Notes under the pieces: generated by a model | Databases searched by the model: none | The model's input: the letters and a program-made list of their open reading frames with translations, nothing else | Told to the model about the DNA's origin: nothing | Source: Bacteroidales bacterium | GTDB taxonomy: Bacteria > Bacteroidota > Bacteroidia > Bacteroidales > Marinilabiliaceae | DNA: 64,000 nucleotides | Assembly: GCA_003249255.1 (NCBI GenBank) | Contig: QKJP01000004.1 | Span: 37,993-101,992, forward strand | Direction: 5' to 3' | In this document: positions 61,301-64,000 of the stretch, one piece after another | Layout: the number at the start of each line of letters is the position of its first letter | Position numbering within the stretch: the stretch's first letter is position 1 | Program-made: the position numbers and the translations under genes

Positions 61301-62680
61301 ATGAATGTGCCCTTAATTTTTTTAGATCCATTTTTTCACAATAAGACTCCTTTGTTACGTATCAGCTTTGAATATTTATCAAAGCAACTCAAGGAAAGGT
61401 TTAATCATTCGCAAGTTGTGCATTTTAGTTTTCAATACAACTGTTACTATATCCGTAACAGCGAGAATGAAATTGAGAAACTGAAGAAGCTTTTAAGTGG
61501 CTTTCAATTGATTCATAATGAGTTTAAAAGTCCTCAAGTGATTAATACTTTTGATGACTTGTGCGCCTCAGTACTTATCATCACAGTTCTGAAATTTGAG
61601 AATAAAGCAGTTGTGAAATTACCTGTTCCATTTAATGAGACATGGACGGATTATTTAAAAAGTTTAGGAGCTTTTTACGATGTTAGACGTCGTTTGTGGT
61701 TGATAAGGTCTTATGATTTAAATGCAAAGAAGCTTGAAGATTATTTTTCAAAGAGTGGAGTAAAAATCATATATAAGTTGGCAGATCGTAGTGCAGGAAT
61801 AGGTTCTATCGAGAGTAAGGACTATAAGCCCAATGAGATTATGATTGATGAAGAACTTCAGGATTTTATCAAAGCAATGACTTTGCAAGGTGCACAAAAA
61901 CGTACCATTGAAAATTATGTGAGCCAGATCAAGCATTTGAAAAAGTTTTACAAGGGGCGGAGTATAGTCGATATTACTGATAAAGAAATACGAGATTATT
62001 TATACCATTTGAGGAATCAATTAAACTATTCATATTCTTCACAAAACCTGGTTGTATGTGCTGTAAAGCGATATTTTGAAAGTGTGACAGAGCGCGTATT
62101 TAATTCTAAATTAATTCCCTTATCGCCCCATAAGAAAGTTTTACCAAAAACCATAGAAAAAGAGGAAGTTGCAAAGGTACTGAATGTGGCGATGAATTTG
62201 AAACACAAAACTATTTTATATCTCTTGTACTCAACAGGAGTACGGTTGCAGGAATTGCTCAATTTAAAAGTTGAAGATGTCAGTTTTGAAAATAAAGTAA
62301 TTATAGTAAAAAATGGTAAAGGAGGTAAAGATCGGATAGTTGTTTTATCAGATAAAGTAAAGAGCTTATTGAGTGATTATTATAAGAAATTTCAACCCAT
62401 CAAATACCTTTTAGAAGGTGTAAACGGTGCGCAATATAGTGCAACTAGTGTACGTAAGATTGTAAATCGTGCGAAGGAAAAGGCTGGGATAGAAAAGCCA
62501 CTTACTCCACATGTATTTCGTCATTCCTTTGCCACTCATTTACATGATTCGGGTATAGATATACGCAATATACAAGTTTTATTAGGCCATCAAAGTACCA
62601 AAACAACAGAAATATATACCCATGTTTCTAAGCATGATATAAGGAAATTAAAAAGTCCATTGGATGATTTGGATTTATAA
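61301..62680 (+). CDS. Tyrosine recombinase of an integron-like element
   Basis: The start at 61301 (MNVPLIFLDPFFHNKT) is preferred; the open frame extends to a TTG at 61232. The 459-residue protein has an extra N-terminal region (about 1-180), a SAM-like core-binding domain (about 185-275) and a catalytic domain with R315 in GVRLQELL, H404 and R407 in TPHVFRHSFATHL, H430 in LLGHQS and Y439 in EIYTH. The C-terminus LKSPLDDLDL resembles the SPLD ending of integron integrases. The extra loop of classical IntI before the HxxR box is not seen. The downstream cassette structure indicates an integron role. Confidence 0.85.
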   Translation: MNVPLIFLDPFFHNKTPLLRISFEYLSKQLKERFNHSQVVHFSFQYNCYYIRNSENEIEKLKKLLSGFQLIHNEFKSPQVINTFDDLCASVLIITVLKFENKAVVKLPVPFNETWTDYLKSLGAFYDVRRRLWLIRSYDLNAKKLEDYFSKSGVKIIYKLADRSAGIGSIESKDYKPNEIMIDEELQDFIKAMTLQGAQKRTIENYVSQIKHLKKFYKGRSIVDITDKEIRDYLYHLRNQLNYSYSSQNLVVCAVKRYFESVTERVFNSKLIPLSPHKKVLPKTIEKEEVAKVLNVAMNLKHKTILYLLYSTGVRLQELLNLKVEDVSFENKVIIVKNGKGGKDRIVVLSDKVKSLLSDYYKKFQPIKYLLEGVNGAQYSATSVRKIVNRAKEKAGIEKPLTPHVFRHSFATHLHDSGIDIRNIQVLLGHQSTKTTEIYTHVSKHDIRKLKSPLDDLDL

Positions 62681-62708
62681 AGGATGCTACATAAACGAAC
62701 ATAATAGT

Positions 62709-62743
62709 TTTGGTGTGAAATCAATAATCAATTACTATCTTTG
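62709..62743 (+). promoter_or_regulatory. Candidate cassette promoter (Pc-like)
   Basis: TTTG at 62709-62712 and TATCTTTG at 62736-62743 fit the Bacteroidota -33 (TTTG) and -7 (TAnnTTTG) elements, though the 23-base gap is a little long. It reads toward the cassette gene from just downstream of the integrase. Confidence 0.4.
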
Positions 62744-62755
62744 TCCAAATTACAT

Positions 62756-62833
62756 TTATAAACCATAACGCACACAAATGTGTACGTTATGGTTTTTATA
62801 AGCACAAAGTGCTTATAAAGTGTAGTTGTGTGC
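62756..62833 (+). other. Candidate attI region with two hairpins and a core site
   Basis: The first inverted repeat is AACCATAACG/CGTTATGGTT (62761-62794) with an inner ACAC/TGTG pairing. The second is TTTATAAGCAC/GTGCTTATAAA (62795-62819), a perfect 11-base stem with an AAA loop. A core site GTTGTGTGC follows at 62825-62833. The G/TT position (62825/62826) is the predicted recombination point. Confidence 0.6.
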
Positions 62834-63859
62834 AACCAAAAGAAAGAAAACAGAGATACATATTATGAAAACATTGAACGTTTTAAAATTCATTTACAAC
62901 CATCCATTTAATTCTGAAAACAAGATTGGTGGGTTATTGAAATTTTTTAAATGGCAAATCAATTGCCGTTTGAACCCGTATCCTATCTTATATCCATATA
63001 CTGAAAACTCTAAATTCATAATTTGGAAAGGATTAACAGGAGCCACAGGAAATCTTTACTGTGGATTGATGGAATATGATGATATGGCATTTCTTTTACA
63101 CTTTTTAAGACCAAACGATTTATTTATAGATATCGGTGCAAATGTTGGTGCTTATACAATTTTAGCATCATCCGAAATTAATGCAAAAACAATTGCTATT
63201 GAACCTGTTCCCTCTACATTTAAAAACTTAATGGACAATATTTTGATTAATCAAATGCACGAAAAAGTCAAAGCATTAAATATTGGTTTAGGTAGTAAAA
63301 ATGGTAAACTTAAATTTACTAAATCATTGGACACGGTTAATCACGTTGCAACTCAAAATGAAACTGATACAATTGAAGTTGATATTAAGACATTAGACAC
63401 GATATTATCGACAGAACCAAGTCCTATTCTTCTAAAAATTGATGTTGAAGGATTTGAAACAGAAGTTCTAAATGGTGCCGAAAAAACCTTATCGAATATA
63501 TCTTTAAAAGCAATTATAATCGAATTAAATGGTTCAGGACAAAGATATGGTTATGATGAAAATCAAATTCATAATAAATTGATTGAGCTTGGTTTTAAAA
63601 CCTTTAATTATAACCCTAAAACAAGACAGTTAAAAGAAATAGAGACATTCGGTACTCATAACACAATATATTTGAGAGATAAAGAATTCATTGAAGAAAG
63701 AATTAAATCTGCTAGACAAATAAAAATTGGCAGCACACAACATCGTGTATAAGTAATGGCGGGAATAGTAGCGTATTCGAGCTTTCTACCTCGCATCAAG
63801 TTCATCGCAACTTGACAGGAAAGTACCCCGTATTCCGCCACTACTTATACACGTAACCG
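62826..63859 (+). mobile_element. Integron-type gene cassette (FkbM cassette)
   Basis: The predicted cassette runs from TT after the attI G to the G of GTTATGG at 63859, 1034 bases. Its first bases (G)TTGTGTGC are exactly complementary over nine bases to GCACACAAC at 63733-63741, the inner core site of its own attC. In integrons this complementarity arises because the two form the ends of one attC in the excised circle. The cassette holds one gene in the usual orientation. Confidence 0.72.
62865..63752 (+). CDS. FkbM-family SAM-dependent methyltransferase (cassette gene)
   Basis: I prefer the ATG at 62865 (MKTLNVLKFIYNHPF) over an upstream TTG that lies in the cassette core site. The 295-residue protein has the SAM-binding motif FIDIGANVGAYTILA, acidic IAIEPVP, and LLKIDVEGFETEVLNGAEKT typical of FkbM enzymes, which often methylate hydroxyls on sugars or polyketides. 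The stop codon lies within the left arm of the attC-like site, as in compact integron cassettes. Base composition is notably AT-rich. Its real substrate is unknown. Confidence 0.85.
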   Translation: MKTLNVLKFIYNHPFNSENKIGGLLKFFKWQINCRLNPYPILYPYTENSKFIIWKGLTGATGNLYCGLMEYDDMAFLLHFLRPNDLFIDIGANVGAYTILASSEINAKTIAIEPVPSTFKNLMDNILINQMHEKVKALNIGLGSKNGKLKFTKSLDTVNHVATQNETDTIEVDIKTLDTILSTEPSPILLKIDVEGFETEVLNGAEKTLSNISLKAIIIELNGSGQRYGYDENQIHNKLIELGFKTFNYNPKTRQLKEIETFGTHNTIYLRDKEFIEERIKSARQIKIGSTQHRV

Positions 63860-63865
63860 TTATGG
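63735..63865 (+). other. attC-like recombination site (131 bp)
   Basis: The outer core boxes are ACACAAC (63735-63741) and GTTATGG (63859-63865), with the conserved AAC/GTT triplets. Long arms pair as CGTGTATAAGTA (63744-63755) with TACTTATACACG (63842-63853), then TGGCGGGAATA with TATTCCGCCA leaving one extra G unpaired. The central part holds CTTTC/GAAAG and TCAAGTT/AACTTGA (63796-63815). Imperfect arms with extrahelical bases fit attC sites. Confidence 0.75.
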
Positions 63866-63904
63866 GCAAGCTGAACGAACTAACGAACAGCCTGCCAGAT
63901 AAAC

Positions 63905-64000
63905 TTACCTATCACAAGCATTTTCAACGATTGAGCCTTTGCGTCTATTGTTTCCAATAAGCCCAAGGTGAAAAGCTACATTTAATTCTTCATCTGATAG
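63905..64000 (-). CDS. Possible reverse-oriented second cassette gene (partial)
   Basis: From the right edge, the minus strand is open for 31 codons (SDEELNVAFHLGLIGNNRR then KGSIVENACDR) to a stop at 63905-63907. The + strand frames here are short. The composition looks protein-like, but an open frame of this length can arise by chance. If real, it is the C-terminal end of a gene in the next cassette, in the unusual opposite orientation. Confidence 0.25.
   Translation of the reverse strand, partial: LSDEELNVAFHLGLIGNNRRKGSIVENACDR

Follow-up and report, generated by a model that had tools for sequence, protein, structure and literature searches.

A probable integron-like cassette array behind an I2-less tyrosine recombinase in a Bacteroidales genome

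Introduction

Can a tyrosine recombinase (YR) that lacks the additional domain (I2) specific to integron integrases (IntI) collect gene cassettes in the manner of an integron? This question is raised by positions 61,301 to 64,000 of the window, a stretch of 64,000 nucleotides from a Bacteroidales bacterium of the family Marinilabiliaceae (assembly GCA_003249255.1, contig QKJP01000004.1). Here a YR gene is followed by an attI-like region, an FkbM-family methyltransferase gene and a folded, attC-like site. Integrons are gene-collecting systems best known for the spread of antibiotic resistance. A preliminary description made from the sequence alone regarded the locus as an integron-like system of interest for its occurrence in Bacteroidota. 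All parts that it named (the YR reading frame, a hairpin-rich stretch, a core, the FkbM reading frame and the folded site) are present. The integron-like order and polarity, the core sites and the folded site were also borne out, and relatives possess arrays of like build behind a like recombinase. Integrons as such are already recorded for the phylum in published accounts (PMC8618304, PMC2426708, PMC9024848).

The I2 helix has been credited with turning a double-strand into a single-strand recombinase, and the absence of intermediates has been named as an obstacle (PMC7790495). According to their methods, integron surveys have required the IntI-specific domain (PMC9668308, PMC2426708), and because of this demand the YR described here would be overlooked. 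Beyond Chlorobi and Ignavibacteriae, the account of IntegronFinder 2.0 gives one complete integron in Bacteroidetes, that of Salinibacter ruber (PMC9024848).

The evidence presented below makes it likely that the window ends in the start of an integron-like array. It consists of a YR that groups with IntI but lacks I2, an attI-like site, a cassette with the FkbM gene and probably a second cassette. The YR would move these cassettes by way of the folded bottom strand of their sites.

Overall organisation of the locus

The locus forms the right end of contig C30 in a genome of 4.55 Mb. The visible part covers one complete cassette plus about 141 bases beyond it, and the YR gene and the cassette gene are co-directional. 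The first core, GTTGTGTGC (GTT at 62825), lies 144 nt past the stop codon of the YR gene. It is preceded by two hairpins (hairpin-rich stretch 62753-62824), the second of which is a palindrome with arms ending 5 nt before the core. The stop codon of the FkbM gene lies within the folded site, which closes with GTTATGGGC (63859-63867). The terminal sequence noted in the preliminary description, TTATGGGC, is the start of the likely next cassette; the first cassette has a start of its own, TTGTGTGC at 62826. Coordinates of all features are collected in Table 1.

Cassette ends and arrays in relatives

The 5' end of an integron cassette and the R'' box at its 3' end are two parts of one circle and must therefore pair, whereas the box past the site is that of the next cassette. 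In the window, GTTGTGTGC (62825) and the R'' box GCACACAAC (63733-63741) are indeed exact reverse complements over 9 nt, whereas the next core GTTATGGGC matches this R'' at only 7 of 9 positions.

For comparison we took 40 of the listed YR places together with one locus of a Flavobacterium metagenome-assembled genome (L010). In a fair share of the sampled loci the YR is followed by an array of several cassettes; many other contigs end too early to show one. In the first 4.5 kb behind the YR, counted over loci with at least 300 bases there, complementary 9-nt end pairs numbered 83, compared to 19.7 in mononucleotide shuffles. The complementarity of cassette ends extends to 12 nt with one conserved mismatch. 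A covariance-model search for repeated copies of the folded site, as proposed in the preliminary description, recovered further sites in relatives, with several cassettes each followed by such a site.

The one-contig genome G041 presumably belongs to the genus Carboxylicivirga in the Marinilabiliaceae, the same family as that of the window's genome. It contains 107 sites (E ≤ 0.01) within 240 kb, all 107 on one strand and in runs of 43, 18, 18, 12 and 16, with the nearest approximately 1 kb from the YR gene. No sites were found in 7 of the 15 20-kb stretches read. Among 102 cases of consecutive cassettes delimited by model-chosen sites, 85 have ends that pair at no fewer than 10 of 12 positions, compared to 2.7% of random pairs. 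The longest open reading frame runs in the cassette direction in 65 out of 73 cassettes (150-1500 bp, reading frame of at least 60 amino acids).

These data bear on the idea that the folded sites are dispersed mobile repeats, similar to repetitive extragenic palindromes (REP) or miniature inverted-repeat transposable elements (MITE), or terminators behind genes, with no cassettes involved. The window's genome does contain two more model matches (on C28 and C9) that would fit such a view. Both stand alone and match only weakly (E 1.5e-4 and 3.9e-4), and a matching cassette start was sought for them and not found. Complementary cassette ends, the single orientation of 107 out of 107 sites and an identity of gene plus site that ends at the cores (see below) reduce the probability of this explanation to almost nil.

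Relatives with the same FkbM gene but no flanking cores, which the preliminary description had named as an argument against a cassette, were not encountered so far as tested. Only one of the 118 other relatives has a homologue (E ≤ 1e-35); it is 48% identical, and the stretch around it contains no model match.

The attC-like site

None of 200 dinucleotide shuffles folds as well as either strand of the window site; the bottom strand reaches -29 kcal/mol (z -5.8) and the top strand -25.5 kcal/mol (z -4.4). Two covariance models were built, R1 from 40 sites including that of the window and R2 from 32 sites of other genomes with the window left out. R2 recognises the window site with 99.6 bits (E 9e-21). 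With the 40 sites aligned as bottom strand, AACG and TGTT are invariant at the cores, and 17 of the 22 consensus stem pairs vary on both sides. Pairing cells amount to 94%, and to 69.8% once the 3' letters are shuffled. For the stem, with a structure derived from the same sites, the covariation score is 0.564, as against 0.128 for shuffled and at most 0.147 for slid alignments. The modal site length between cores is 116-119 nt.

Across 52 loci, R1 yielded 82 matches at E ≤ 0.1. No matches at this threshold were observed in 11 of these loci, which are those with more distant YRs, and none in 12 short loci carrying a classical IntI.

The two strands are not equivalent. In 51 sites of 15 loci, selected by a symmetric filter, the stem mismatches are G.T on the bottom strand in 95 instances and on the top strand in 7, and the bottom strand is the more stable one in 45 sites. 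The better fold of the bottom strand is due to conserved G.T pairs. In IntI-type integrons extrahelical bases set which strand is recombined; the asymmetry seen here is mainly one of G.T wobble, and the 51 stems also hold 27 gaps and 59 other mismatches, which are not split by strand.

The tyrosine recombinase

R315, K340, H404, R407, H430 and Y439 (the R-K-H-R-H-Y set) are invariant across 67 aligned sequences. The spacing between the motifs GKGxKxR and HxLRH is 65 amino acids in all 20 YRs in which both motifs were found (36 inspected, window included). It is 107 amino acids in 12 of 14 IntI in which both were found, and 69-73 in three Xer recombinases. In an alignment with 2a3v, the patch III region comprises 27 amino acids in the YR against 70. 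The IntI-specific domain I2 around patch III is therefore absent from the YR, and the window YR scores 187 bits with TIGR02249, below the cut-off of 265 bits.

A tree was calculated from 34 YR, 8 IntI, 4 XerC/D and 2 XerA rows, six near-copies having been removed beforehand. YR and IntI together form one clade (support 98/99) apart from the Xer rows, and the IntI rows form one clade of their own (100/100). The preliminary description had spoken of an integrase. In the sense of IntI this does not apply, since the insert is missing and the score stays below the cut-off; the kinship with IntI is retained by the tree.

With XerC, XerD and XerA the YR shares the fold and the catalytic residues, and its best PDB matches by sequence as well as by fold are XerA. 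It differs from them by its position in the tree, with IntI, as judged from only two XerA and four XerC/D rows. Two other Xer-like matches in the window's genome show 31-34% identity.

This resemblance leads to an alternative in which the YR acts on double-stranded sites, as Xer does at dif, and the hairpin serves another purpose such as transcription termination. The absence from the YR of the I2 insert, to which single-strand recombination has been credited, and the XerA matches speak for this alternative. The stem covariation, the G.T asymmetry and the long covarying stems far from the crossover suit a folded substrate, however, and a site of the same type serves as substrate for IntI1, an enzyme that works on the folded bottom strand. 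We consider double-strand exchange unlikely.

In the window, an extension of approximately 180 residues precedes the SAM-like and catalytic domains. A Pfam search gave no match in this extension. An N-terminal extension of at least 60 amino acids is present in 31 out of 36 YRs by a crude measure, which also scores 2 out of 13 IntI. The HARP model matches 2 of the 120 YR homologues listed, and the fold matches of the extension to the N-terminal domains of XPB and UvsW are weak. On the basis of the structure predictions, the tandem domains may contribute to recognition of the folded site, in the role of the I2 helix. The extension cannot be the whole answer for the missing I2, because some YRs next to sites lack it (L108, L112). 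A short, extension-less recombinase of this kind is found on plasmids of Flagellimonas and Arenibacter, with the sites upstream and in opposite orientation (L112 9895-10747; L108 5519-5725). In Flagellimonas two sites flank a gene of the dihydrofolate reductase family, next to erm(F).

Co-occurrence of sites and recombinase

We searched 119 genomes including the window's own, 57 of which contain a YR at E ≤ 1e-40. Sites are present in all 57, compared to 27 out of 62 relatives without YR. In a sample of 296 genomes of the phylum, for which R1 scored only 11 candidates per genome, sites were found in 137. They occur in 73 out of 90 genomes with YR and in 64 out of 206 without, but in 32 out of 84 genomes with IntI and in 105 out of 212 without; for genomes with IntI and no YR the count is 11 out of 60. 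Both a classical IntI and a YR are present in 24 of the 296 sampled genomes.

The sites could in principle be classical integron attC moved in trans by a distant IntI, the YR being a bystander in a cluster similar to CALIN (attC cluster without integrase). IntI above the cut-off is indeed present in the 84 phylum genomes, sites do occur in relatives without YR, and a site of the same type sits in class 1 integrons, where it is used poorly by IntI1 (PMC3518468). All but one of these 84 genomes are listed outside the window's class, however. Among relatives IntI exceeds the cut-off in 1 out of 61, and no such match was found in the window's genome. Sites are enriched in genomes with YR and not in those with IntI, and the arrays begin directly behind the YR. 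The locus thus does not match a CALIN, as the YR lies directly upstream and the sites track YR rather than IntI. A bystander role of the YR is very unlikely.

Evidence for cassette movement

By their strict ends, 153 cassettes were extracted from 26 loci of 16 genomes or records; a few of these, which overlap, are probably spurious. In twenty pairs the two cassettes have equal length and at least 99% identity; 18 of the pairs lie within G041, one within G036 and one between genera. On the right side, identity stops 3-7 nt into the core in all 20 pairs. On the left side it stops within 5 nt of the core in 13 pairs and extends 20-59 nt further, into the preceding site, in the remaining 7. The intergeneric pair (G021 and G066; L086 12931-14216, L085 12018-13303) is 1286 bp long and 100% identical, and the flanks differ. 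This cassette carries, antisense to the cassette direction, a gene for a 23S rRNA methyltransferase of the Erm type (225.3 bits with the Erm model, whose cut-off is 212).

Among the further genes carried by cassettes are a member of the phage-defence family PD-T7-4 (277 bits) and one for a DNA cytosine methyltransferase (L080 1203-1826; L085 14275-15486).

The attI-like region

A first-cassette core is located behind the YR, at the position of an attI, in 21 loci, one of which (L064) looks doubtful. In several relatives (L057, L058, L059, L061, L044) a CTGAGGAGGCGAAGCTG-like element was observed between the YR and the attI-like site, approximately 100-250 nt after the YR. It was not seen in the window. 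This element could be a leader RNA.

Table 1. Features of the cassette locus at the right end of the window.
Feature	Position	Strand	Basis
YR gene, 459 amino acids	61301..62680	+	open reading frame, profile matches, aligned homologues; start set at ATG 61301 because homologues of 455-465 amino acids align from there
YR N-terminal extension, two alike predicted domains (residues 5-72 and 93-160)	61313..61780	+	AlphaFold2 models
YR SAM-like core-binding domain (residues 186-265)	61856..62095	+	PF13495
YR catalytic domain (residues 284-444), catalytic Tyr439 at 62615-62617	62150..62632	+	PF00589, invariant residues
Weak candidate cassette promoter box TATCTTTG	62736..62743	+	motif
Candidate attI: hairpin 62757-62798, palindrome arms 62795-62805 / 62809-62819, core GTTGTGTGC 62825-62833	62753..62833	+	folding; comparison with relatives
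Cassette 1, from TT of the first core to G of the second	62826..63859	+	complementary ends; unit borders seen in relatives
FkbM-family methyltransferase gene of cassette 1	62865..63752	+	PF05050, TIGR01444
attC-like site: R'' 63730-63741, stem arms 63744-63762 / 63835-63853, next core from 63859	63730..63870	-	bottom strand is the better folder
Start of likely next cassette, truncated by the contig end	63860..64000	+	core GTTATGGGC

Relation to blaVEB and class 1 integrons

The blaVEB (veb1) cassette travels in class 1 integrons and differs in this from the cassettes described above; its attC fits the Bacteroidota model. With R1 it scores 98.2 bits in three plasmids and 96.1 bits in a fourth, and R1 matched no other cassette site in these four plasmid stretches. 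Five of the 50 plasmid records with blaVEB were examined (L111, L113-L116). In the fifth, a plasmid of Klebsiella michiganensis (L111 5001-6780, NZ_CP084417.1), GTTAGCGGTAAT, the start of the cassette, follows closely on a YR fragment with 41% identity to the window YR, and the blaVEB attC is missing. The 41% recombinase match recurs in the plasmid hits H8-H12 (K. michiganensis, Aeromonas veronii, K. pneumoniae).

A 2012 study describes the veb1 site as inefficient with IntI1 (PMC3518468), which would be explained if the site was made for another recombinase. A study of cassette origins from 2021 employed 11 taxon models, none of them for Bacteroidota, and its main text mentions neither veb nor Bacteroid (PMC8352920).

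Comparison with classical integrons and proposed mechanism

Classical integrons (IntI, attI, attC), the large chromosomal ones among them, and the present system have in common a recombinase beside an attI-like junction, tandem and mostly one-gene cassettes in one orientation, and an attC-like site at the 3' end of the cassette. GTT/AAC cores, a better-folding bottom strand, complementary ends and a unit-wise movement of cassettes are shared as well, and the recombinases have a similar, SPLD-like C-terminal ending. The differences comprise the missing insert (65 compared to 107 amino acids), the N-terminal extension of most YRs and the co-direction of YR and cassettes. The modal site length, the G.T asymmetry of the stem and an end complementarity of up to 12 nt with its conserved mismatch also set the system apart. 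Judged by its sites the system is an integron, and it would work as one; judged by the defining test, that of the integrase, it is no IntI integron.

Several observations weigh against this assignment. The contig ends at base 64000, and the array cannot be followed further. The window cores GTTGTGT and GTTATGG do not fit the 7-bp consensus GTTRRRY / RYYYAAC, which the cores of some relatives do fit. The palindrome of the attI-like region is significant in only 7 of the 21 loci (combined p 2.9e-6), and the cassette promoter is weak, with a TAnnTTTG box in 6 of the 21 loci compared to 2.1 expected. The top strand folds better in 6 of the 51 sites. Sites are present in the 27 relatives without YR at E ≤ 1e-40, and in 17 of the 90 phylum genomes with YR they were sought among the 11 candidates scored and not found. 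The 20 identical pairs are not independent, as 18 come from G041 and some cassettes belong to several pairs. Complementary ends were the criterion for choosing both the training sites and the 153 cassettes, so that among the end tests only the one in G041 is free of this selection. Finally, a single YR clade has a p value of 0.35 in the approximately unbiased test (p-AU), and the tree is compatible both with such a clade and with IntI lying among the YRs.

At the level of sequence, the anatomy, the tandem arrays, the complementary ends, the covarying and strand-asymmetric hairpins and the end of identity at the core are all present. Based on these features, the YR itself probably moves the cassettes, and its substrate is presumably a folded single strand. 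We propose that the YR would act as IntI does and swap the folded bottom strand of the attC-like site, at G/TT, with the attI-like region or with some other site. Cassettes would be inserted and excised by the YR at the GTT core. New cassettes would enter at the site adjoining the YR gene. Where I2 is missing, the tandem N-terminal domains could assist in recognition of the hairpin.

Significance

We read the system as a second, I2-less integron lineage of Bacteroidota. A more far-reaching version holds that the lineage is no rarity, given the 137 out of 296 phylum genomes with sites, that these I2-less kin of IntI captured folded single strands before I2 existed or came to do so without it, that tandem N-terminal HARP/UvsW-like domains read the hairpin in most of them, and that their pool gave class 1 integrons at least one clinical resistance cassette, blaVEB. 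We regard the chances for and against this version as even.

If true, the missing intermediates, or else an independent solution, would be found in this large family of I2-less relatives of IntI, whose sites are folded and strand-biased, and the question of I2 would become testable. The YR lineage would also offer the blaVEB cassette a source, together with a reason for its poor fit to IntI1. The YR family likely collects genes by a route that has been overlooked.

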